This document shows, piece by piece, positions 16,076 through 34,142 of a stretch of DNA of 35,658 nucleotides; position 1 is the stretch's first letter, and the number at the start of each line of letters is the position of its first letter. A program made the position numbers and the translations under genes. The notes beneath the pieces were generated by a model. The model saw only the letters and a program-made list of their open reading frames with translations, had not been told where the DNA came from and made no database searches. The stretch comes from Deltaproteobacteria bacterium (GTDB taxonomy: Bacteria > Myxococcota > Myxococcia > Myxococcales > JAHFDP01). The stretch is taken from positions 68,304 to 103,961 of the forward strand of contig JAHFDP010000003.1 of assembly GCA_023248955.1 (NCBI GenBank), given 5' to 3'.

Positions 16076-16170
16076 AGGTTACATTCACCGTGGCATGGGA
16101 TGGATGTCGCACTTTCTACGCCTTGCAGCTTGCAGCATGTCTAAACAACGTGTTAGCGGGCAAACACCGA

Positions 16171-16539
16171 ATGCGCAGCGAATTTCCAACCGGATCAGCC
16201 AAAGGCAGCGGCCTTGTCGACGTGCTCGATCGCGTCCTCGACAAGGGACTCGTGATCGCCGGCGACATCAAAGTCTCGCTGGCCGAAGTCGAGCTGCTGA
16301 CCATTCGCATTCGTCTATTGGTCTGCTCCATCGACAAGGCTCAGGAAATCGGTCTCGATTGGTGGCGCTACGATCATCATCTCTCTCCGGGGAAACAACC
16401 GGAAGCTTTGGAAAACGAAGAATTGCGCAAGCAGGTTCGCCTGCTCGAGCGCAAGGTGGCGTCTCTCACGGGACGGGGCGGGGGCCCTTTGCGCCAACGG
16501 AAAACAAGCGTGTTGGATGCGGTTCCGAGGAGCAAATAA
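16171..16539 (+). CDS. gvpJ: Gas vesicle protein GvpJ
   Basis: First gene of the gas-vesicle cluster, 122 residues from the ATG at 16171. Its core, [20 protein letters not shown] through [16 protein letters not shown] to [13 protein letters not shown], is the GvpJ form of the GvpA superfamily. The IAGD and DWW signatures separate it from structural GvpA. A helical, coiled-coil C-terminus follows ([18 protein letters not shown]), as in the Bacillus GvpJ, then a basic tail. GvpJ is a minor, essential protein thought to act in nucleating the vesicle shell at its conical tips. No strong ribosome binding site is seen, and the start is uncertain, with open frame to 16090. Its TAA overlaps the gvpA start. 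Confidence 0.85.
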
Positions 16540-16868
16540 TGGCCATTGAAAGAGCTTCAGGCGGCACAAGTCTTATCGACGTTCTCGACCGGGTTCTCGA
16601 CAAAGGCATCGTGATCGATGCTTGGGTTCGAGTCTCCCTGGTCGGCATCGACCTCATCACCGTTGAAGCGCGTGTCGTCGTCGCTTCCATCGATACGTAC
16701 CTCAAGTACTCGGAAGCGGTCGGGCAGGCTTCGCCGGCGTCGCGTCCGGGCATCGATGCCAAGGCACATGAAGAGGTCTTGGCCGAGAACGAGTCGTTGC
16801 GAGCGCAGCTCGCGGCGAAGGGCGTTCGTACGCCAGCATCCAAGCGCGGCAAGCAACTCCGGGCCTAG
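16539..16868 (+). CDS. gvpA: Gas vesicle structural protein GvpA with C-terminal extension
   Basis: The main shell protein of the gas vesicle, 109 residues. Residues 10-60 are nearly canonical: [20 protein letters not shown], then [20 protein letters not shown] and [12 protein letters not shown]. Canonical GvpA ends close to this point (about 70 residues). Here a further 40 residues continue, with a helical heptad-like stretch ([19 protein letters not shown]) and a basic tail (SKRGKQLRA). GvpA assembles into ribs that enclose a gas-filled, water-excluding chamber giving buoyancy. GAGGAG at 16527-16532 is a good ribosome binding site, six bases from the ATG, and the start shares bases with the gvpJ stop (TAATG). 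Confidence 0.93.
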
Positions 16869-16871
16869 GCC

Positions 16872-19034
16872 ATGGCCGCCCCAGCTCCGCGGCACCAAGC
16901 CACGTGGGCGAACGTGGCTGCTGGCGCCGAAGCGCGCCTCGGTCTCGCCGAATTTCTGCTGACCTGCGACGATCGGGAAACCTGCGCGCAGTCTGCTGTC
17001 GAATGGCTTGGCGATCACGCGGGCATGCGCCAAGCGGTCTGCCTCGTGGTGCAGGAAGGCGAGCCACGGCGGCTGGCGGGCATCGCGGGATTTGGCGTTC
17101 CGACGAGCAAGGTCAAGCAGTTCTCGATGGCCGTCGAGGACTCCGAGCATCCGCTGGTGCAGGCGCTGATGGGCTCGCAGCCGGTGAGCTTCCGCCCGGT
17201 CGGTGACGATCTTCCGTTGCGGCTCGGCGTTGGCACGGGCTACCGCGAATTTCGCGCCATCCCCTTGGCGCCGCTTGAGCTCGACGAGCAGCTCGGTGTC
17301 GGCGTTCTTCTCGCCAGCGCCGAAGATGCCACGCAAGTCACACGGGAAGTGCGCTGGGTGGCGCGCGTGCTCGGCGAAAAACTTTTGCGTCTTCGCGCAC
17401 GCGATGTTCTGGCCGACGCCGAGCACCGTTACCGTCGTGAGCGGACGCTGCTCTACAGCATCGTCAATGCGGTAACCGACCCGATTTTGCTCACCGATAC
17501 CGAGGGGAAACTAATCCTCGCCAACAACCGCGCCGAGAAACTCTTCGCCGCGCGTGAAGAAGAATCGGAAGGCCGCCGCCGCGCCGTCGCGCTCAACAAC
17601 ATGCTCTTCTCTTCGGCGCTTTCGTTCTCGGCTATTGAAGATAATCCATCTAGTGTACGGCGCGAGCTGCTGGTCGTCGATCCCACCGAAGGCAGCGATC
17701 TTTTGTTCGAGCTGATGTCCACGGTAGCCGCGGACGCGCGCGAGGGCACGGGCATCGTGTCGATTTTGCGCAACGTCACTGACCTTCGCCGCGCCACCGA
17801 GGAAATCGAGGAGAACTACCGCAAGCTGCGCGTGGCCGAGTCCGACATTCGCGCCGAGCGCGACCGCCTCGACCTCATCATCGACTCCATGGCCGATCCG
17901 GTGGTGGCGACCAACCCCTCGGGCGAAATCATGTTGATGAACACGCCCGCCGAGCGTCTGTTTACGGCAGGCACCAACGTCGGCAAAGACGCGCAGCGTG
18001 CGGTGCGCACCAACGACGCCGTTTTTTCGTCGTTCATCTCCAACCTCTTTGCCGCGCAGGGCTTGCGTTGGAAGGGCGAGCTCAACCTCACCGATCCACA
18101 GACCGGTGTGCTCGTTCCGGTGGAAGCGATCGCCGGTAAAGTGTTGTCCGAGCACGGCGAGCTCACCGCCATCGTCACCGTGCTTCACGATCGCACCGAC
18201 GCCATGGAGAAGGCGCAGCTTTACGATCAGGTCAAACGCGCCGCCGACGAGTTGGAAGCGAAAGTGCAAGCCGCGACCGGCGAGTTGGCGCAGCAGAACG
18301 AGCTGTTGCGACGCCAGGCCATCGCGCTCGAGCAGGCCAGCGCACTCAAATCGCAATTCCTCGCCAACATGTCGCACGAGTTCCGCACGCCGCTCAACGC
18401 CGTGCTCGGCTACACGCAGATGCTCTTGCAAGGCGTCTCGGGGGATCTCACAACGCCGCAGCTACGCAGCATGTCGCGCATCGAATCGAACGGCAAACAC
18501 TTGCTGGCCATCATCAACGACATCCTCGACATCTCGCGCATCGAAGCGGGCAAGATGCCGCTGCACCTCTCGGAGTTCGATCTCGATGTGCTGGTGGCCG
18601 AGGTGATGGCGGAGATGGAGCCGATCATCTCGCGTTCCAAGCTGGCCGTGACCACCGAGATCGCACCGCGCTTGCCGCGCATGCGCAGCGACCGACAAAA
18701 GGTCAAGCAGATCGTGCTTAACTTCTTGGCCAATGCGGTCAAGTTCACGCACCAAGGATCGATCAAGGTCAAAGCGGCATACTTGCCGGGCAAGATCGTT
18801 TCGATCTCCGTCTCTGACACGGGCATTGGCATTGCGGATCAGGATCGCGAAAAGGTCTTTCAGGATTTCCAGCAGGTCGACAGCTCGCCAACGCGCTTCT
18901 ACGGTGGCGCAGGACTCGGTCTTTCGATTTGCCGGCGGCTCTCCAACATGTTGGGCGGCGACATTTTCTTGGAAAGCAAACTGGGCAAAGGCTCGACGTT
19001 CGCGCTGCGCGTGCCCGCACGGCTGAGGCGATGA
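16872..19034 (+). CDS. GAF/PAS sensor histidine kinase in the gas-vesicle cluster
   Basis: A 720-residue hybrid-less sensor kinase without transmembrane helices, so cytoplasmic. Order: a GAF-like domain (about 20-180), a PAS domain (about 190-300, AVTDPILLTDTEGKLILANN), a second PAS (about 330-450, SMADPVVATNPSGEIMLMN) and a coiled coil (about 450-490). A HisKA dimerisation domain follows, with the phospho-acceptor His502 in NMSHEFRTPLN. The HATPase_c domain (about 600-720) has N box NFLANAVKFTH, G1 VSDTGIGIAD and G2 GGAGLGLSI. It lies three bases after gvpA, and the next ATG overlaps its stop. It probably senses a soluble or redox signal and phosphorylates the response regulator encoded next, controlling vesicle production; that link is inferred from position. 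Confidence 0.9.
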   Translation: MAAPAPRHQATWANVAAGAEARLGLAEFLLTCDDRETCAQSAVEWLGDHAGMRQAVCLVVQEGEPRRLAGIAGFGVPTSKVKQFSMAVEDSEHPLVQALMGSQPVSFRPVGDDLPLRLGVGTGYREFRAIPLAPLELDEQLGVGVLLASAEDATQVTREVRWVARVLGEKLLRLRARDVLADAEHRYRRERTLLYSIVNAVTDPILLTDTEGKLILANNRAEKLFAAREEESEGRRRAVALNNMLFSSALSFSAIEDNPSSVRRELLVVDPTEGSDLLFELMSTVAADAREGTGIVSILRNVTDLRRATEEIEENYRKLRVAESDIRAERDRLDLIIDSMADPVVATNPSGEIMLMNTPAERLFTAGTNVGKDAQRAVRTNDAVFSSFISNLFAAQGLRWKGELNLTDPQTGVLVPVEAIAGKVLSEHGELTAIVTVLHDRTDAMEKAQLYDQVKRAADELEAKVQAATGELAQQNELLRRQAIALEQASALKSQFLANMSHEFRTPLNAVLGYTQMLLQGVSGDLTTPQLRSMSRIESNGKHLLAIINDILDISRIEAGKMPLHLSEFDLDVLVAEVMAEMEPIISRSKLAVTTEIAPRLPRMRSDRQKVKQIVLNFLANAVKFTHQGSIKVKAAYLPGKIVSISVSDTGIGIADQDREKVFQDFQQVDSSPTRFYGGAGLGLSICRRLSNMLGGDIFLESKLGKGSTFALRVPARLRR

Positions 19035-19477
19035 TGGCCAAACGAATTGCGACGAACGGGAAAGCGAGCCGCGCGAAAGCGCCGTTGATTCTGGTGGTGG
19101 AAGATTTTCAAGACGCGCGCGAAATGTACGCCGAGTATTTGGAATTTTCGGGCTACCGCGTGGAGCAGGCGCGCGATGGCGAAGAAGCGCTCAAGAAGGC
19201 CAATCGTTTGCAGCCGAGCATCATTTTGATGGATTTGTCGTTGCCGAAAATCGATGGCTGGGAAGCGACGCGGCGGCTCAAGCGGGACGAGGCCACGCGG
19301 CAAATTCCAGTGGTGGCGCTGACTGGACACGCGCTGATTGGCCACTCCGAAGGTGCGCGCGAGGCGGGTTGCGATGCGTTCGTGGCCAAGCCGTGTCTGC
19401 CCGACGCGCTGGTGGCTGAAGTGCGGCGGGTGTTGGAGCTGATGGCGAAACCGAAGACGAAGCGGGCGAAGGCGTGA
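19031..19477 (+). CDS. Single-domain response regulator
   Basis: A 148-residue receiver-only protein, the likely partner of the upstream kinase. After a basic leader (MAKRIATNGKASRAKA) the receiver shows VVEDFQDARE (acidic pocket), LMDLSLPKIDGWE with phospho-Asp68, VVALTGHA (Thr switch) and DAFVAKPCLPDAL (conserved Lys). There is no output domain, so it probably acts by protein-protein contact, as CheY-like proteins do, or in a phosphorelay. Two ATGs, 19031 and 19034, both sit in the kinase stop region. Its own stop overlaps a possible GTG start at 19474, but gvpF more likely starts at 19507. Confidence 0.88.
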   Translation: MMAKRIATNGKASRAKAPLILVVEDFQDAREMYAEYLEFSGYRVEQARDGEEALKKANRLQPSIILMDLSLPKIDGWEATRRLKRDEATRQIPVVALTGHALIGHSEGAREAGCDAFVAKPCLPDALVAEVRRVLELMAKPKTKRAKA

Positions 19478-19506
19478 AAAAATTTGGGGGCAATTCAGGA
19501 GAAGGC

Positions 19507-20409
<903 letters not shown>

Positions 20410-20414
20410 TCCGC

Positions 20415-20711
20415 GTGATCGTCCTCGACAAGATGCTCATCGGGAGCATCAAGTTCGTCCTGGGCAAAGTAGTCGCTGCCGCCCAGGCCGAACTGGACGA
20501 CGATTCGCATCTGCGCGAGGAGCTCTTGGCCACGCAGATGCGATTCGAGCTCGGGGAGATCACGCAGGAAGAGTTTGGCGAGATCGAAACGCAGCTCCTG
20601 GCGCGGTTGCGGGAGATTCGCGAACGGCGCGAAGGACTAGGCGGGCCGAAGGTCGGAGACGAAGGTGTGAAGGTCGTCGGTGTCGACGCGAGCGTCGGCG
20701 GCGATGAGTAG
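20415..20711 (+). CDS. gvpG: Gas vesicle protein GvpG
   Basis: A 98-residue helical protein. Start GTG 20415 gives VIVLDKMLIGSIKFVLGKVV, then AAQAELDDDSHLREELLATQ and FELGEITQEEFGEIETQLLARL. This is the GvpG pattern (hydrophobic N-terminal helix, then LE-x-GEI-x-EEF-E-x-LL). GvpG is an accessory protein that works with GvpF and GvpL in early gas-vesicle assembly. It comes five bases after the gvpF stop. An acidic-glycine tail follows (GDEGVKVVGVDASVGGDE). The REP-like element begins five bases after its stop. Confidence 0.82.
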   Translation: MIVLDKMLIGSIKFVLGKVVAAAQAELDDDSHLREELLATQMRFELGEITQEEFGEIETQLLARLREIRERREGLGGPKVGDEGVKVVGVDASVGGDE

Positions 20712-20715
20712 CGTT

Positions 20716-20800
20716 CGTCATGGCCGGGCCTCGACCCGGCCATCCACGTGGATGCTCCGATCAATGGCCGTGGATGCCCGGGTCAAGCCCGGGCATGACG
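20716..20800. repeat. REP/BIME-like composite palindrome inside the gvp operon
   Basis: Two hairpins, 20720-20728/20735-20743 (ATGGCCGGG arms) and 20774-20782/20788-20796 (ATGCCCGGG arms), lie in the gap between gvpG and the ArsA-like gene. A perfect 14-bp palindrome, CATCCACGTGGATG, sits at 20741-20754. The outer halves (20716-20748 and 20769-20800) are themselves imperfect inverted copies. This is the arrangement of a REP-doublet (BIME). Similar CCCGGGCATGAC/GTGGATGCCCGGG elements are familiar from proteobacterial genomes. It could stabilise or separate the upstream and downstream halves of the operon transcript. Confidence 0.7.
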
Positions 20801-20804
20801 GATA

Positions 20805-22763
20805 GTGGTGGTGGTGAATTCGCTTTTCCATTTTTTCGGCGGGAAGGGTGGCGTCGGAAAAACGACGTGCGCCGCCGCCGCTGCGATTGCCTCCGCTGAA
20901 GCTGGTTCGCGAACGCTCATCGTCTCCACGGATCCCGCCCATTCGCTCGGCGACGCGCTGACAAAAAAGCTCTCCGCAAAACCGCAACGAATCACCGTGC
21001 ACCGCGGTGAGCTCTTTGCGACGGAGCTCGATGCGACCAGCGCGCTCAAACGTTGGCTCACGCCGCGGCGAAAAACGCTGCGCACCATTGCCGAGCGCGG
21101 CACGGTGCTCGATGACGAGGACATCGATCGGTTGCTGCAACTTTCGCTGCCGGGCGTCGATGAGCTGATTGGCCTTTTGGAGTTGGTGCGGCTGGCGCGC
21201 GCGGGCGATTACGAAACGATCGTGGTGGACACCGCGCCGACTGGGCACACGCTGCGGTTTTTGGAAATGCCGGAGACGCTGCACCGGATCGCGGTGGTGC
21301 TCGACGAAATGCAGGAGCGGCACCGGTTTGTGCGCGAAAGTCTCGGGGGCGCGCCGCGCGCGGATGCGGCGGACGCGCTCATCGACGAGTTGGAGAGCGA
21401 TGCGCAGGAGCTGGCTGCGATTCTGCGCAATCGCACACGGACGACGGTGACGTGGGTTCTGTTGCCGGAAGCGCTCGCCGTGGCCGAGTCGCAAGATGCG
21501 CTGGCGGCGCTGCAACGCGACAGCATCGCGGTGAACGAAGTGATCGTGAATCGCGTGACCGCGAGACCGCGAACCCCGTGCGCGCTCTGCGATGGACGGC
21601 GTTCTGCGGAGCGCGTGGCGATCGGCGACGCCGTGAAAACGCTGACGGTTGCACAGCGAGCACTGCGGCAAATCGAGTCGATGGAAGCGGAGCCGCGCGG
21701 TGTTGCTGCGCTGCGAAGGGTGGCGACCAAGATCCGCGATGTGGAAGTCACGGCATCGCGAACCAAGACGAACGGTCGAACGAAGGCCGCGCGAACGAAA
21801 ACAATTCCGCTGCTTGGGGCGGGGCTCGAGATCCCGTCCTCGGTGCAGCTTCTTTTTTTGGGTGGAAAGGGCGGCGTTGGCAAAACGACCTGCGCCGCGG
21901 CAACCGCGTTGGCACAGGCTGAGCACGATCCGCAGCGAAAGATTCTTCTGCTCTCCACGGACCCCGCGCATTCGCTCGGCGATGCGCTCGGAATTCCACT
22001 CGGTGACGACGAGCGAAACGTTCCCGGCGTAGCGAATCTTTTTGCACGCGAGCTCGACGCGGCGCGTGCCTTCGACGCGCGTCGCGAACGCTACCGCGAC
22101 GCCATCGATGGGTTTTTCGATCGCCTCCGAGGCGAATCGCGCTTCGACGCTTCGCACGACCGCAACGTGATGCAGGATCTTTTCGATCTGGCGCCACCGG
22201 GACTCGACGAGCTCTTTGCCGTCGTTTCGGTTTGTGACGCGCTCGTCCCGGCGGTCGGCAAAACCGCGCCGGGCGCATTCGATCGCGTGATCATCGACAC
22301 CGCGCCAACAGGCCACGCGCTGCGTCTCCTCGAGATGCCGGAGCTCGCGCTGACGTGGTCGCGCACGCTGTTGTCGCTGCTCCTCAAGTACCGAGGTGCG
22401 ATGCCGCTGGGCGATCTGGCGCGCGAGCTCACCGACCTGACGCGCGGACTGCGCGAGGTCGGCGTGCTGCTTCGCGATAGCGCGCGGACGCAGTTTGTGC
22501 CGGTGATGCGCGCGGCGGAACTTCCGCGCGTGGAAACCGAACGCCTGCTTCGTGCGCTCAAGAAGCTGCACATCCCGGTACCGTTGGTCATCGTGAACGC
22601 GCTAACGCCGCCCGGTTGCGCGCGCTGCGATCGGCTGGCCGTCCTCGAGGAGAAACTGCTCACGCGGTTTCCGGCTACACTCATCCGTGCGCCGGCGATC
22701 GTGCCACCCCCCATTGGGCTTGCCGTGTTGCGGAACTGGGAAATGACTTGGAAAACGGACTGA
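20805..22763 (+). CDS. Tandem ArsA/Get3-type ATPase in the gas-vesicle cluster
   Basis: A 652-residue protein made of two full ArsA/Get3-family ATPase halves. Each half has the deviant Walker A GGKGGVGKTTCAAA (about residues 12-25 and 353-366), switch I TDPAHSLGDAL, and the conserved DTAPTGH-LR-LEMP block. Each half also keeps a CxxC pair, TPCALCDG and PGCARCDR, like the zinc pair of the Get3 dimer. The repeats are joined by a basic linker (about 315-345). Arsenite pumps and tail-anchored-protein targeting are the known roles of the family. No arsenic genes are near, so a chaperone or targeting role for hydrophobic Gvp proteins is suggested by context. The start is one of several adjacent GTG codons from 20805. 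Confidence 0.88.
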   Translation: MVVVNSLFHFFGGKGGVGKTTCAAAAAIASAEAGSRTLIVSTDPAHSLGDALTKKLSAKPQRITVHRGELFATELDATSALKRWLTPRRKTLRTIAERGTVLDDEDIDRLLQLSLPGVDELIGLLELVRLARAGDYETIVVDTAPTGHTLRFLEMPETLHRIAVVLDEMQERHRFVRESLGGAPRADAADALIDELESDAQELAAILRNRTRTTVTWVLLPEALAVAESQDALAALQRDSIAVNEVIVNRVTARPRTPCALCDGRRSAERVAIGDAVKTLTVAQRALRQIESMEAEPRGVAALRRVATKIRDVEVTASRTKTNGRTKAARTKTIPLLGAGLEIPSSVQLLFLGGKGGVGKTTCAAATALAQAEHDPQRKILLLSTDPAHSLGDALGIPLGDDERNVPGVANLFARELDAARAFDARRERYRDAIDGFFDRLRGESRFDASHDRNVMQDLFDLAPPGLDELFAVVSVCDALVPAVGKTAPGAFDRVIIDTAPTGHALRLLEMPELALTWSRTLLSLLLKYRGAMPLGDLARELTDLTRGLREVGVLLRDSARTQFVPVMRAAELPRVETERLLRALKKLHIPVPLVIVNALTPPGCARCDRLAVLEEKLLTRFPATLIRAPAIVPPPIGLAVLRNWEMTWKTD

Positions 22764-23533
22764 ACAAAAACGCAACTTATGTTTACTGCCTGGTGCGCTC
22801 GGAAAAGGCGCCGTCGCTCGCACGTGTGCCTTCGGGATTGGCGCGTGCGGCAAAGCTGCGTGGACTCGATGCCGGAGGCGGACGCTGGCTCATCGTGGCC
22901 GACGTACCGCTCGCGCACTACGGCGAAGCCGCGCTGGCGTTGGGTTTGCGCGATCTCGATTGGGTTTCGGCTTGCGCGTTGGCGCACGAAGCCGTGATTG
23001 AAAACTTCCTTTTCGCGGATGCGTTATTGCCGATGAAGCTCTTCACACTTTTTGGCAACGACGATCGGGCGTTGGCACATGTGCGTCGTTCGCGTGCGCG
23101 GATTGATCGATTGCTATCACGCGTGGCGGGCCGCGAAGAGTGGGGCCTGCGTGTGGTTCTAGATGAAGTGAAAGCGCGGAGCCTGGCCGCGGCGAAGCGA
23201 ACGCCCGCGGGACCGGCCACCGGCGCGGCTTTTCTCTTGCGCAAAAAACGTGATCAGGATTTCGCGCGCGAAGCGCTCGCCGGGGCACGCGCGCAGGCGG
23301 ATCGACTTTTCGTGCAGTTGAAACGGAGCGCGGTTCAGGCCCAACGCCGAACACCGACGGCAGAGCAGGGTGGTCGGCTGGTGTTGCACGCCGCCTTTCT
23401 GGTGGAGAACAAAGACGGCGCTAAATTTTCGGCGCACGCGCGTGCCGGGCTCTCGGCGCTCACGGAACGCGGCTGCGACGCCGCTCTGAGCGGGCCGTGG
23501 CCCGCTTATCATTTTGTCGGATCGGCGCGATGA
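22748..23533 (+). CDS. gvpL: Gas vesicle protein GvpL (second GvpF/L)
   Basis: The second GvpF/L homologue, about 261 residues. The domain starts KNATYVYCLVRSEKAPS and ends ALSGPWPAYHFVGSA, the family signature. Middle elements also fit: VIENFLFADALLPMKLFTLF (compare the VMRKHTVIPMSFGTVF block of the first copy) and EEWGLRVVLDEVKA. No ATG lies in a suitable place; the TTG at 22748, with GGAACTGGG upstream, is the best start, overlapping the 3' end of the ATPase gene. Position after the inserted ATPase and before gvpS matches GvpL of the Bacillus order. It ends with an ATGA overlap into gvpS. Confidence 0.85.
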   Translation: MENGLNKNATYVYCLVRSEKAPSLARVPSGLARAAKLRGLDAGGGRWLIVADVPLAHYGEAALALGLRDLDWVSACALAHEAVIENFLFADALLPMKLFTLFGNDDRALAHVRRSRARIDRLLSRVAGREEWGLRVVLDEVKARSLAAAKRTPAGPATGAAFLLRKKRDQDFAREALAGARAQADRLFVQLKRSAVQAQRRTPTAEQGGRLVLHAAFLVENKDGAKFSAHARAGLSALTERGCDAALSGPWPAYHFVGSAR

Positions 23534-23769
23534 GCATCGTGAAAAACGAGGCTGCGGAGATCGTCGAGACAGCGGAAGCGTCATTGCTCGAGATCATCGA
23601 TCACGTCCTCAACAAAGGCGTGGTGATCACCGGCGAAGTGATGCTGGGCGTGGCTGGCGTCGATCTCGTCTACCTGCGCATTTCGGCGATTCTCTGCGCC
23701 GCCGACCGTGTCGATCCGTGGAATCGGGCCGAGGGCCAGCATCGCCTCACCACGCGCAAGAAGGGCTAG
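23530..23769 (+). CDS. gvpS: Gas vesicle protein GvpS (GvpA-superfamily)
   Basis: A 79-residue minor GvpA-family protein. The core ASLLEIIDHVLNKGVVITGE with VMLGVAGVDLVYLRISAIL resembles the Bacillus GvpS form (VAGVDLVYL), not structural GvpA or GvpJ. It starts at ATG 23530, overlapping the gvpL stop (ATGA), and is followed after five bases by the third F/L gene. It is a non-structural assembly factor, probably acting in nucleation. Confidence 0.82.
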   Translation: MSIVKNEAAEIVETAEASLLEIIDHVLNKGVVITGEVMLGVAGVDLVYLRISAILCAADRVDPWNRAEGQHRLTTRKKG

Positions 23770-23774
23770 CCGCG

Positions 23775-24425
23775 ATGATTTCGCTCTACGCATTGACGGA
23801 CGCGCGCGTTGCACTGCCTCCTGGACTGCGCGCGGTAGCGTGCGAGTCCTTCCTCGCGATCGTCGCCGACGTCGAGCAGGTTCCAGTGATCACCGAAACC
23901 GCGCTGCGCAATCACGATGCCAATGTTCGCGCACTGTCGGCGATTTCCGAGGCGATTCTTCCGGCGCGTTTTGGATCGGTCGTGGCGGACGAACCGGAGC
24001 TCGTCGACGCGCTCGAAGCGCGGACCGCGACGCTTGTGGACGCGTTGCGGCTCGTGAAGGGAATGGATCAGATGACGTTGCGTGTTTTCGGACCGTCCGT
24101 CTCCGAACCGCTCACCAATCCAGCGGCCGCCGATCGTTCTGGAACGGACTACATGCTTGAACGGCAGCGTGCGTTGCAAACGGAGACCGAGGTGGACGAG
24201 ATCGCGCAGCTGCGCGCGTTGCTCGCGCCACTGATCCACGGGGAGCGAACCGAGCGCCATGCCGCGCCGCCACTGATCGGGAGCGTGTATCACCTTGTCA
24301 TACGCGGACAATCCAAAGCATACGGAACAGTTGTGCGTGAAGCTGCGAGTCAGTTGGCGCCCATCCGCGTCGCAGTTAGCGGACCGTGGCCGCCTTACGC
24401 GTTCGCGCCGGAGGCGATTCGATGA
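23775..24425 (+). CDS. Third GvpF/L homologue, shortened
   Basis: A 216-residue GvpF/L-family protein, the shortest of the three. It starts directly at the domain (MISLYALTDARVALPPGLRA) with no N-terminal extension. Family blocks include SEAILPARFGSVVADEPEL and KGMDQMTLRVF, ending in VAVSGPWPPYAFAPE. It sits between gvpS and gvpK, where the classical order has no F/L gene. It may be a specialised partner that recognises a different GvpA-like subunit, such as GvpS or GvpJ; this is inferred. ATG 23775 is preceded by a short GGCTAGCCGCG; its stop overlaps the gvpK start. Confidence 0.85.
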   Translation: MISLYALTDARVALPPGLRAVACESFLAIVADVEQVPVITETALRNHDANVRALSAISEAILPARFGSVVADEPELVDALEARTATLVDALRLVKGMDQMTLRVFGPSVSEPLTNPAAADRSGTDYMLERQRALQTETEVDEIAQLRALLAPLIHGERTERHAAPPLIGSVYHLVIRGQSKAYGTVVREAASQLAPIRVAVSGPWPPYAFAPEAIR

Positions 24426-24784
24426 AGCATCTTGAAAATAAACCCGAGGCCGTTCCGCTCTTGAAGCGCGAGCTCGAATCGCTTCGCACCGAGCTGGCCC
24501 GCCGCGCCGCCAAAACCGTGGTCCCGCGCTGGAACGCCGATCCCAAGGACGTGCAACGCTCAGTGGTGAAGCTGGTGCTCTCGCTCATCGAATTCTTGCG
24601 CCGCCTCCTCGAGAAACAGGCCATTCGCCGCATGGAGAACGAAACGCTCTCGCCAGAAGAGGTCGAAGCAGTGGGTAGCGCGTTGATGAAGCTGGAAGAG
24701 ACGGTGCTCGAGCTAGCAAAGCGTTTCGACATTCCGCCGTCGGAACTGAATTTAGATTTAGGGCCACTCGGGAAGTTGATTTAA
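24422..24784 (+). CDS. gvpK: Gas vesicle protein GvpK
   Basis: The last gene of the cluster, 120 residues from ATG 24422, overlapping the previous stop (ATGA). The GvpK signature is clear: WNADPKDVQRSVVKLVLSLI, EFLRRLLEKQAIRRMENETL, ALMKLEETVLELAKRFDI and the C-terminal LNLDLGPLGKL. GvpK is an accessory protein required for gas-vesicle formation in most systems. The mainly helical fold probably interacts with GvpF/L and GvpA. The transcript runs into an AT-rich hairpin with a T-run (24773-24800). Confidence 0.88.
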   Translation: MKHLENKPEAVPLLKRELESLRTELARRAAKTVVPRWNADPKDVQRSVVKLVLSLIEFLRRLLEKQAIRRMENETLSPEEVEAVGSALMKLEETVLELAKRFDIPPSELNLDLGPLGKLI

Positions 24785-31269: not shown

Positions 31270-32680
31270 TGTTGTAGGTCAGCGATAATGTCCGCCTAAC
31301 AGCTCAGGGAAAATGTCCGCTCTCGAATGTCGTGAGACCAAAGGGAATGGACAAGATGAGCGAGCAGCAATGGAAGAGGTTGGACTTGGTGAAGCGGCTC
31401 GATAGAGGGTTGCTGACCGTAGCCGAGGCGGGAGTGATTGCTGGAATCACGGAGCGACAAATGCGACGGGTCCGGGAGAAAGTGCACGAGCGTGGCAAGG
31501 CGGCTCTGGTGCATGGAAACAAGGGACGTCCGCCTCCCAATCGCATCGAAGAGAAAACGCGAAGCCTGGTCATCGAATTGTTCCGGACGAAGTACGCCGG
31601 CTTCAATGATCAGCACTTCACGGAGAAGCTGGCCGAGGAAGAAAATATCGTCGCCTCGCGGCCGAGCATTCGGCGCTGGCTGCGCGCAGCCGGTCTGGCG
31701 GCGGCGCGCAAACACCGGCCACCTAAGCACCGTGCGCGGCGAGATCGCAAAGCGCAAGCGGGACTGATGCTGCTCTGGGACGGCAGCCGGCACGACTGGC
31801 TGGAAGGGCGCGGTCCGCTCATGACGCTGATGGGCGCGGTGGACGACGCGACGAGCGAGCTCTTGCCGGGTGCGCACTTCGTCGAGCAGGAGTGCACGGT
31901 CGGCTATCTGCGGGTGCTGCGCGACGTGGTGCGCGAGCGCGGCGTTCCCTACAGCATCTACATGGACATGCACGGGACGCTCAAACGCAACGACGCTCAC
32001 TGGACAGTGCAGGAGGAATTGAGTGGCAAGCAGATCCCGACGCATGTTGGCCGCGCGTTGGAGATATTAAATATCGAGGCAATTTTCGCGCTGTCGTCGC
32101 AAGCCAAAGGCCGTGTCGAGCGGCAATGGAATACGCAGGACCGCCTGGTGAGCGAGCTACGACTCGCGAAAGTGTGCACACTCGAGAAGGCGAATGGGCT
32201 CTTGGCGCGGCTTTTGCCAAAGTCGGGAAGGCGTTTCGCCATCGCTGCTCGAGATGAAAAACCGGCTTGGCGAAAACTCCTTCGCGAAATCGATCTCGAT
32301 CGCGTTTGCAGTTTTTTTTACGAGACAACCGTGCTCAACGACAACACGGTGCGAATCGCTGGCCTGCTGATCGATATTCCACCGGGCCCGCAACGACGGA
32401 GCTATGCGCAAGCACGTGTCGAAGTGCGGCAGCTGCTCGATGGGAGCTGGCGTGTCTATTTCCAGAATCAAGAAATTGCGCGAGCGGCGTCGACTGCAAC
32501 GACGGAACTTCGGGCGCTGAAGAGACGCAAACTGGGGGCGACTTCGAAAGCGTTTCGCAAGGCCATACGGCAGCTCACGGGGTAGCTTCTTAAAGATAAC
32601 GAATAGATTCTTTTCATTGGACACAAAGCGGACATTTTCCCTGAGCTGTTACAGGCGGACATTTTCCCTGACCCTTGACA
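31270..32680 (+). mobile_element. Intact insertion sequence, ISNCY/IS1202 type
   Basis: A 1.41-kb element with one transposase gene. Its ends are long imperfect inverted repeats: 31278-31321 against 32627-32672, agreeing at nearly all positions with one two-base indel, and the outermost bases read TGT...ACA. Each end contains two copies of a GGGAAAATGTCCGC-like motif, probably transposase binding sites. It is flanked by a direct repeat of 16-17 bases. Long target duplications of this size are known for part of the IS1202/ISNCY group. The element appears complete and recently inserted. Confidence 0.85.
31356..32585 (+). CDS. DDE transposase, ISNCY/IS1202 type
   Basis: The transposase of the element, 409 residues from ATG 31356. 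An AAGGGA at 31341-31346 favours this start over the GTG at 31332. The N-terminal helix-turn-helix (KRLDRGLLTVAEAGVIAGIT, ERQMRRVREK) is followed by a second helical region (SRPSIRRWLRAAGLAAARKH). The DDE core has Asp142 (LLWDGSRHDWL), Asp204 (IYMDMHGTL) and Glu255 (KGRVERQW). The C-terminal part (YAQARVEVRQLLDGSWRVYF) is the beta-rich domain often seen after the core in integrase-type transposases. No frameshift is seen, so it should be active. Confidence 0.85.
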   Translation: MSEQQWKRLDLVKRLDRGLLTVAEAGVIAGITERQMRRVREKVHERGKAALVHGNKGRPPPNRIEEKTRSLVIELFRTKYAGFNDQHFTEKLAEEENIVASRPSIRRWLRAAGLAAARKHRPPKHRARRDRKAQAGLMLLWDGSRHDWLEGRGPLMTLMGAVDDATSELLPGAHFVEQECTVGYLRVLRDVVRERGVPYSIYMDMHGTLKRNDAHWTVQEELSGKQIPTHVGRALEILNIEAIFALSSQAKGRVERQWNTQDRLVSELRLAKVCTLEKANGLLARLLPKSGRRFAIAARDEKPAWRKLLREIDLDRVCSFFYETTVLNDNTVRIAGLLIDIPPGPQRRSYAQARVEVRQLLDGSWRVYFQNQEIARAASTATTELRALKRRKLGATSKAFRKAIRQLTG

Positions 32681-32737: not shown

Positions 32738-32813
32738 TCCTTGGTAGCTCAGTTGGCAGAGCAGCGGACTGTTAATCCGCGGGTCGCAGGTTCGAGTCCT
32801 GCCCAAGGAGCCA
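32738..32813 (+). tRNA. tRNA-Asn (GTT anticodon)
   Basis: A complete 76-base cloverleaf with encoded CCA. The acceptor arm TCCTTGG pairs with CCAAGGA (32803-32809), with discriminator G. The D arm is GCTC...GAGC. The anticodon stem GCGGA/TCCGC encloses loop CTGTTAA with anticodon GTT at 32771-32773. The T arm is GCAGG-TTCGAGT-CCTGC. The gene is also the attachment site of the integrative element: the integrase gene on the opposite strand ends inside it. Confidence 0.96.
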
Positions 32814-33948
32814 TCCCTCCCGAGAATTCAGACACTTGCGAGGTGGCGGTCTGTCCGCCGCGTCCACCGAATCCGCGGTTTTCCACTGCGTTTGACACAC
32901 CGGTGTCACAGTCTTTTGCCGCCATCGCGCCCAGCGCTGCGCGAATGCGGGACCGCAGATCCGCGAGTGGCAGCCGAGCGTAAACGCGCTCCAACATGCG
33001 GCTGTCCTTGTGGCCCATCACCGGAGCGATGAGGTCCAACGGGACGCCAGCCATGCGCATCCAGGTCGCGTGCGTGCGACGCAGGTCATTCGGAGAGCAG
33101 CGGTCGATGCTGGCTTTCGTGCAGCCGAGGCGCAAGTCGCGGTTCACTTTGCCCCAAGGCGAAAACAGATTGCCGTCCATGCCTTCGGCGTACTTGAGCG
33201 CGTAATCGAGCAACTCGCGCTGAAACTCGGCGGCGACGGGCACGCTGCGCAAGCGCGTCGCGCGCTTGGTGCCACGGATGAACACGGAGGACTTGTCGGG
33301 AGCTACGTCCTCACGGCGGGCACGTTCGGTTTCGCCCCAGCATGCGGAGGTCGCGACGATGAAGGCGACGCGAGCGGCGTGGTCGGGCGTGAGCTTGGCG
33401 AGCAGTTTTTGGAGTTCTTCTGGTGCGAGCCAACGTTCACGCGGCTTGTACTCGGGGGCGAAACCGATAGGGAGCACGGCTGCCGGGTCGGCCATCCAGA
33501 GCCCGCGGCGCCGTGCGAGTTTCAACGCCGTCCGGAGCGTAACCAACTCCTTTGCGATGGTCGTTTCGTGGGCTCCCTCCGCGCGCCGCGTCGAAATGAA
33601 CGCGTCAACAACCCGCGCGCCCGCAGGCGGTAGGAGTTTTGCGAGGGGTGTCGTGCCGCCGAGTACCCGGATGAGGTGACCGGCTTTTTGTCGATAGAAG
33701 CGCACCGTTTCAGCGCTGCCACGGCCGGAGCGCGCGCGTTCATCGCGCTCGGCAACCATCATGGCAAGCGCGGCTTCGACAGTGGTCGCGTTCGCGGCTG
33801 CGTGATCGGGATCAGCGGCGTCACGTTCCCACTGGCGGACGAGAGCTTCAGCGGCCTTCTTGTCGTGGCAGTTCGTGGATCGGCGGACACGATCGCCGTT
33901 TTCGTAGTAGGTGCCCCACCAGACCTCGCCGCGTTTGTAGAGTCGCAT
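32749..33948 (-). CDS. Tyrosine-recombinase integrase with altered active-site residues
   Basis: A phage-type integrase of 399 residues from ATG 33948 (MRLYKRGEVWWGTYYENGDR). It has an N-terminal arm-binding region, a SAM-like core-binding domain (about 60-150) and a C-terminal catalytic domain. The TSACWGETERARREDV segment lines up with the family's TGLRxxE block, putting Cys204 where the first catalytic Arg is expected. SPNDLRRTHATW has Asn for the usual first His but keeps the Arg. MGHKDS and the tyrosine in LERVYARL are present. The C-terminus APWAGLEPATRGLTV RCSAN and its stop are encoded by the antisense strand of the tRNA, typical for tRNA-targeting integrases. It is intact in frame; activity is uncertain. 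Confidence 0.85.
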   Translation of the reverse strand: MRLYKRGEVWWGTYYENGDRVRRSTNCHDKKAAEALVRQWERDAADPDHAAANATTVEAALAMMVAERDERARSGRGSAETVRFYRQKAGHLIRVLGGTTPLAKLLPPAGARVVDAFISTRRAEGAHETTIAKELVTLRTALKLARRRGLWMADPAAVLPIGFAPEYKPRERWLAPEELQKLLAKLTPDHAARVAFIVATSACWGETERARREDVAPDKSSVFIRGTKRATRLRSVPVAAEFQRELLDYALKYAEGMDGNLFSPWGKVNRDLRLGCTKASIDRCSPNDLRRTHATWMRMAGVPLDLIAPVMGHKDSRMLERVYARLPLADLRSRIRAALGAMAAKDCDTGVSNAVENRGFGGRGGQTATSQVSEFSGGMAPWAGLEPATRGLTVRCSAN

Positions 33949-34142
33949 CCGAACGTCTCCTCTGCGTATCGTTCCCAAACGTGAGCTTGAACCCTGAGCA
34001 GGCCCCGTCCGTCAATCCGTCCCGCGGCGCGACGCAGGTGCTCGTAGGCAATCGAACGGCTGCACGCGAGGGCGCGCATGACGTCCTTCGCGTTCACCCA
34101 GATCGTGAGCGGGACGACGCGATCAGCTGTGAGGGAATCCAT
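33759..34142 (-). CDS. Excisionase-like helix-turn-helix protein
   Basis: A 127-residue ORF upstream of and overlapping the integrase by about 190 bases. The N-terminal 65 residues look like a small DNA-binding protein: PLTIWVNAKDVMRALACSRS (helix-turn-helix) then IAYEHLRRAAG and LLRVQAHVWERYAEETF. That suits an excisionase or recombination directionality factor encoded next to an integrase. The C-terminal part runs through the integrase N-terminus in another frame and looks unstructured, so the functional part is probably the first half. An inverted repeat at 34171-34196 lies just upstream of its start. Confidence 0.55.
   Translation of the reverse strand: MDSLTADRVVPLTIWVNAKDVMRALACSRSIAYEHLRRAAGRIDGRGLLRVQAHVWERYAEETFGCDSTNAARSGGAPTTKTAIVSADPRTATTRRPLKLSSASGNVTPLIPITQPRTRPLSKPRLP

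Follow-up and report, generated by a model that had tools for sequence, protein, structure and literature searches.

A tandem ArsA/Get3-type ATPase with a conserved place beside gvpF and gvpG in gas-vesicle gene clusters, with and without gvpN

How gas vesicles, which find use in ultrasound imaging, are assembled is an open question. GvpF binds monomeric GvpA, GvpG contacts only F and L, and GvpN is required for elongation in B. megaterium and Haloferax (PMC9501494; PMC11223475). In the gas-vesicle literature searched, the ATPase that is treated is GvpN; a Get3-fold ATPase that is fixed beside gvpF and gvpG across many phyla is a second. Castillo & Saier (2010, PMC2963123) described two-domain ArsA homologues encoded among the gvp genes of Bacteroidetes/Chlorobi, Geobacter, cyanobacteria and one acidobacterium, both with and without gvpN. 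These authors proposed that the ArsA homologues supply energy to one of the steps by which vesicles are made, and considered the functions driven by GvpN and by ArsA to be probably distinct; for the acidobacterial member of their Cluster 6, gvpN is not among the gvp genes that they list. The association of such an ATPase with gvp genes is not new, having been reported in 2010. We found no further discussion of the link in the other gas-vesicle literature searched, and no experiments on any member of the gvp-type ATPase group in the literature searched.

The DNA analysed here, referred to as the window, is a stretch of 35,658 nucleotides from a 3.83-Mb Myxococcota MAG that is 95.6% complete. 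A sequence-only reading of it had placed a tandem ArsA/Get3 ATPase at 20805-22763, co-directional with its neighbours between gvpG and gvpL, in an operon without gvpN. These observations were confirmed: the position and reading frame hold, and family matches identify the ATPase and its neighbours (gvpG, PF05120, upstream and a GvpL/F protein, PF06386, downstream, all on the + strand). The operon runs, all on the + strand, from a gvpA-like gene through gvpA, a histidine kinase, a response regulator, gvpF, gvpG, the ATPase, gvpL, a minor gvpA-type gene and a third gvpF/L to gvpK:

16090-16539, + strand, GvpA-family protein, the first of two (PF00741, 6.6e-17, domain at about 16213-16326; 64 bits in the genome search)
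16533-16868, + strand, GvpA, candidate for the major shell protein (NCBIfam GvpA subfamily above cut-off, 114 bits)
16872-19034, + strand, PAS-containing soluble histidine kinase (Pfam PAS, HisKA and HATPase_c)
19031-19477, + strand, single-domain response regulator (Response_reg, 7.7e-25)
19474-20409, + strand, gvpF/L paralogue 1, in the gvpF position (PF06386, 4e-76)
20433-20711, + strand, gvpG (PF05120, 1e-15)
20712-20804, + strand, intergenic palindromic element that fills the gap between gvpG and the ATPase and can fold as one long hairpin
20805-22763, + strand, two-half ArsA/Get3-type ATPase (652 codons, GTG start at 20805, TGA stop at 22763)
22748-23533, + strand, gvpF/L paralogue 2, gvpL (PF06386, 5e-39; its start overlaps the ATPase stop)
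23530-23769, + strand, minor GvpA-family protein of gvpJ/M/S type (PF00741, 6e-14; 4-base overlap with gvpL)
23514-24425 (ORF limits), + strand, gvpF/L paralogue 3 (PF06386, 3.8e-24 over residues 105-298; true start probably near 23770)
24386-24784 (ORF limits), + strand, gvpK (PF05121, 5.9e-30; probable ATG near 24422)

Neither ars genes, as judged from the ORF list and Pfam families, nor a gene for a Get1/Get2-like receptor were seen in this operon. About 7 kb downstream of it lies an ORF at 31332-32585 that by eye, from its translation only, resembles an integrase-core transposase; a further ORF at 32749-33978, on the opposite strand to the first, looks by the same means like a tyrosine recombinase. 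The kinase and regulator genes (16872-19477) lie between gvpA and gvpF. Clusters without gvpN from Myxococcota, Rokubacteria, Acidobacteria and Planctomycetes have close homologues of both at this position, the kinase homologues in related clusters scoring 720-880 bits. Homologues of the pair are kept even in gvpN-less clusters that have no ATPase. The element in the gap before the ATPase is a near-perfect palindrome with a folding energy of -60 kcal/mol (z = -5.95) and contains an exact GTCATGCCCGGGCTTGACCCGGGCATCCAC. It was not found in the other gvp loci and clusters retrieved, and we take it to resemble a dispersed palindromic repeat.

The ATPase matches Pfam ArsA_ATPase (PF02374) with E=1e-107, in two stretches, and NCBIfam TIGR00345 (GET3/ArsA/TRC40) with 362 bits. 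Since the sense ORF gives such strong matches, an antisense ORF of 617 codons over the same gene is ruled out as a mere high-GC shadow. The Walker A, DTAPTGH and CxxC motifs that the sequence-only reading had assigned to both halves were all found:

Residues ~12-21 and 353-362, P-loops
D43 and D386, switch I
Residues 142-148 and 498-504, DTAPTGH
Residues 259-262 (C259/C262) and 605-608 (C605/C608), CxxC, one per half

Each half retains GKGGVGKT, STDPAHS and DTAPTGH, and across 49 diverse sequences the P-loop, switch I and DTAPTGH of both halves are near-invariant. In an alignment, the half 1 CxxC falls on the CxxC-xx-RR of archaeal Get3. In 48 of the 49 sequences the four CxxC cysteines are kept or lost jointly, a broken pair being counted as lost, which is consistent with one shared four-cysteine site, a putative metal site. 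By contrast with ArsA, none of the As(III)-ligand cysteines (about C113, C172 and C422) is present in any of 30 gvp-type sequences, all three positions being replaced. The score against the ArsA equivalog TIGR04291 is below threshold (218 bits against a cut-off of 650), and the GvpN family model TIGR02640 is absent from the NCBIfam matches of the protein. The ATPase thus combines an ArsA-like build with the cysteine motif of Get3 and, as every sequence checked has lost the arsenite ligands of ArsA, is unlikely to sense arsenite.

An AlphaFold model of the ATPase (pLDDT 89.2, pTM 0.89) was compared with known structures using Foldseek. The best match of the full-length model is closed ArsA (9nbo/9nbw; target TM 0.75-0.77). 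Taken singly, the halves match archaeal Get3 3zq6 (target TM 0.80-0.84) and are structurally closest to Get3/TRC40, including complexes with transmembrane segments. The segment that corresponds to the client groove of Get3 is reduced to 75 and 66 residues in the two halves, against 83-85 in Get3, and is poorer in methionine, with 3.3 and 1.5 methionines in gvp-type ATPases against 8-10 in Get3. In the model it forms two helices rather than three and has no separate middle helix. These differences suggest caution in equating the ATPase with Get3.

A single scan of 84,980 species genomes for the closest relatives of the ATPase yielded 79 loci. Nearly all of these are gvp clusters, from many phyla; where, in a few, no gvp gene is visible, the contig is short. 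The concern that the ATPase might occur mostly in gvp-less contexts can therefore be set aside for its close relatives, which are overwhelmingly found in gvp contexts; a more distant sister clade in Myxococcaceae is gvp-independent. Over all sets, gvpG lies directly before the ATPase on the same strand in 87 of 105 copies, with gvpF ahead of gvpG in 85 of those 87, and the median gap between gvpG and the ATPase is 67 bp. The gvpF-gvpG-ATPase triad also occurs with no other gvp gene in the retrieved flanks (G218 (L240), G221 and G296). Two of these are split clusters, in which the gvpL-J-L-K genes lie on a contig apart from the triad (L180/L195 in G221; L238/L198 in G296). That the triad stands apart from other gvp genes in these three genomes marks gvpF, gvpG and the ATPase as a module. 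A gas-vesicle role for the ATPase is well supported by the conservation of this order across many phyla. In the ATPase tree the window protein falls within a 26-row set of gvp-linked sequences (SH-aLRT 99), with the ArsA pair outside; three rows (L120, L148 and L163) are badly filled and their placements are not usable.

The absence of gvpN extends beyond the operon. A search of the whole window genome found no gvpN anywhere: the best TIGR02640 match reaches 28 bits against a cut-off of 267, lies at loci other than the ATPase and is of a background AAA+ kind that was also met in 12 of 14 control genomes. In the ATPase tree, one large clade comes from gvpN-bearing clusters, with L128 and a second copy in L108 as exceptions, and a second clade (clade II), which includes the window protein, comes from clusters without gvpN. 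Genome-wide searches were likewise negative for gvpN in all 28 further gvpN-less genomes examined (L128 and L108 included), most of which carry a clade II protein, and in additional window-type Acidobacteria and window-type Myxococcota. Two basal ATPase loci turned out to have gvpN. For L224 and L222, gvpN lies just beyond the retrieved stretch or on another contig, and for L209 it is elsewhere in the genome.

Co-occurrence of the ATPase and gvpN was then tabulated from a survey of GvpK-bearing genomes (195 Myxococcota, 347 Acidobacteriota and 345 Thermodesulfobacteriota genomes searched), the ATPase loci and a few annotated plasmid clusters. Both genes are present in 38 clusters, the ATPase alone in 33, gvpN alone in 21 and neither gene in 18. 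Because 79 loci were found via the ATPase, clusters bearing it are over-represented by design, and hence the table shows that all four states exist and does not give natural frequencies. Annotated examples are a gvp cluster on a Nostoc plasmid, which has gvpN and the ATPase together, and one on a Streptomyces plasmid, which has neither. The cultured vesicle formers Lamprobacter modestohalophilus and Desulfocicer vacuolatum carry the ATPase along with gvpN. The ATPase is an accessory and not a core gas-vesicle factor, since many gvp clusters exist or work without it (the 21 with gvpN only and the 18 with neither).

A tree of GvpF, GvpG and GvpK places the window-type clusters in one group of 34 rows (SH-aLRT 100). 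This gvpN-less lineage spans at least five phyla (Rokubacteria, Acidobacteria, Myxococcota, Gemmatimonadetes and Planctomycetes). Within the group, three clusters lack both the ATPase and gvpN: L056, whose genome is 69% complete, L196 and L204, the last on a 6.47-Mb single-contig chromosome without gvpN and without a gvp-type ATPase, having only a distant tandem homologue. Within the gvpN-less lineage the cluster has thus also lost its ATPase on three or more occasions. Phylogenetically independent pairs of clusters that differ in gvpN showed no opposite change in the ATPase (1.9 in the same direction against 1.4 in the other; the pairs are few and their power is low).

At the level of genomes, an apparently strong trade-off between gvpN and the ATPase (p=0.001) was rejected. 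It had arisen from counting a universal Myxococcaceae homologue as the gvp ATPase; 95 of the 96 genomes of that family have this copy, which is unlinked to gvp, and most of them gave no GvpK match. A further ground for the rejection was that the tandem proteins of G552 and G047 proved distant (260-274 bits). With Myxococcaceae left out, the gvp-type ATPase is present in 16 of 22 gvpN-less and 11 of 24 gvpN-bearing genomes (p=0.08, not corrected for descent). What correlation there is belongs to essentially one lineage. In the ATPase tree the Myxococcaceae homologue forms, on a long branch, the sister of the window group. Since this sister clade is near-universal in the family and gvp-unlinked, the fold family also has a role outside gas vesicles there. 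One copy of the homologue is at 8595-10670 of L191; in one complete genome the gene has a sigma-54 regulator, accA and an aminotransferase around it. Large-genome myxobacteria of this family also have gvp clusters with neither gvpN nor a linked ATPase (L041-L046, L050, L051, L053, L060, L062 and L064).

The sequence-only reading had suggested that the ATPase may chaperone or target Gvp subunits in place of GvpN. The gas-vesicle role stands, on conserved order in many phyla. The part about GvpN is not supported, given the 38 clusters with both genes and the 18 with neither; the two genes also vary independently on the tree. In its full form the proposal is that the ATPase supplies ATP-driven elongation and so allowed gvpN to be lost in the lineage of the window. 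It draws on the genome-wide absence of gvpN from the window genome and the checked clade II genomes of all five phyla, on the grouping of the gvpN-less type as one clade of the ATPase tree and on the somewhat greater frequency of the ATPase in gvpN-less genomes. Against this, both genes coexist in many clusters and are both missing from others, three of window type among them; the independent pairs reveal no trade-off, the fold class and neighbours are unlike those of GvpN, and the pattern depends on essentially one lineage. On these grounds replacement of GvpN is neither the simplest reading nor supported by distribution, and we consider it unlikely. That the ATPase often adjoins gvpN also argues that it is probably not a stand-in for GvpN. 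A related idea, to which we likewise give a low probability, is that the ATPase was already a partner of GvpF and GvpG in gvpN-bearing ancestors and in the gvpN-less lineage also took over ATP-driven shell growth; if so, a Get3-class rather than an AAA+ machine would power vesicle elongation there.

Other roles can be weighed on the same data. The ATPase might be a targeting factor that brings hydrophobic Gvp proteins to the membrane, as Get3 does with tail-anchored proteins. The structural closeness of each half to Get3/TRC40, transmembrane-segment complexes included, and the Get3-like CxxC would fit such a role, but gas vesicles are cytosolic, the operon shows no Get1/Get2-like receptor gene and the client-groove segment is reduced to two helices in the model, so that we regard targeting as highly unlikely. 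A switch for the histidine kinase and response regulator of the operon, rather than an assembly factor, is suggested by the conservation of both in the same cluster type. However, most ATPase-bearing clusters of the gvpN-containing clade have no kinase-regulator pair, and gvpN-less clusters without the ATPase still keep it; we give this reading very little credence. Scarcely any is due to the view that an arsenical or metal-driven ATPase sits in the operon by chance. Its family and tandem architecture are those of ArsA, and distant relatives are often auto-annotated as 'arsenical pump-driving ATPase', yet the protein falls outside the ArsA pair in the tree and no ars genes accompany it; as an arsenic gene it was rejected, the As(III) cysteine positions being replaced in 30/30.

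The preferred reading is an assembly role in which GvpF and GvpG are the partners, and we judge it about as likely as not; any detail of it is less probable. What the data show is the sequence of the ATPase with its motifs, its predicted fold, its gene order and how it is distributed, whereas the partner, the client and the step are inferred. The two Get3-like halves would form a pseudo-dimer within one molecule, opening and closing with ATP. The partners of the ATPase would be its fixed neighbours GvpF and GvpG, and it would most likely bind or release either shell subunits of the GvpA family or complexes of GvpF/GvpG in which these are held. It may act at vesicle nucleation or loading, upstream of GvpN elongation and independently of it; the entire cluster type of the window may have lost gvpN, if it ever had it. 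A Get3-like, chaperone-type mechanism is plausible from the predicted fold and the CxxC pairs, which fit it, while the groove segment is shorter and Met-poor. The distribution predicts that the ATPase partners GvpF and GvpG and acts at a step other than that of GvpN. Whatever its mechanism, the ATPase is a real, conserved, widespread and understudied gas-vesicle gene.

Compared with known systems, the gvp ATPase resembles the ArsA arsenite pump in its tandem pseudo-dimer, its two P-loops and its best full-length fold match. It differs in lacking the arsenite-binding cysteines and ars neighbours and in having CxxC pairs, which are missing from ArsA. With archaeal and eukaryotic Get3/TRC40 it shares the fold of each half, matched by archaeal Get3, and the CxxC, a zinc motif at the Get3 dimer interface, which is present in both halves and in half 1 aligned to archaeal Get3. 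However, Get3 is a homodimer of single-domain subunits with a Met-rich client groove, whereas the gvp ATPase is a tandem fusion in one polypeptide with a shorter, Met-poor segment and no known receptor partner. GvpN is also an ATPase encoded in gvp clusters, but it is of the AAA+ class and occupies another gene slot, and the ArsA/Get3-class protein is often found alongside it. The closest likeness is to Clusters 4/6 of Castillo & Saier (PMC2963123), which have two ArsA halves and ~640 residues and lie inside gvp operons of several phyla; the window protein has 652 aa and is set among gvpA, A, F, G, L, J, F/L and K, with no ars family in the operon. Their Cluster 6 joins a gvp-linked acidobacterial member and an unlinked Myxococcus xanthus member, as does the present tree. 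The window protein extends this kind by one member, from a different myxococcotal lineage, and relative to the excerpts consulted our analysis adds the precise order gvpF-gvpG-ATPase, the joint conservation of the CxxC pairs, the gvpN counts and the conserved kinase and regulator.
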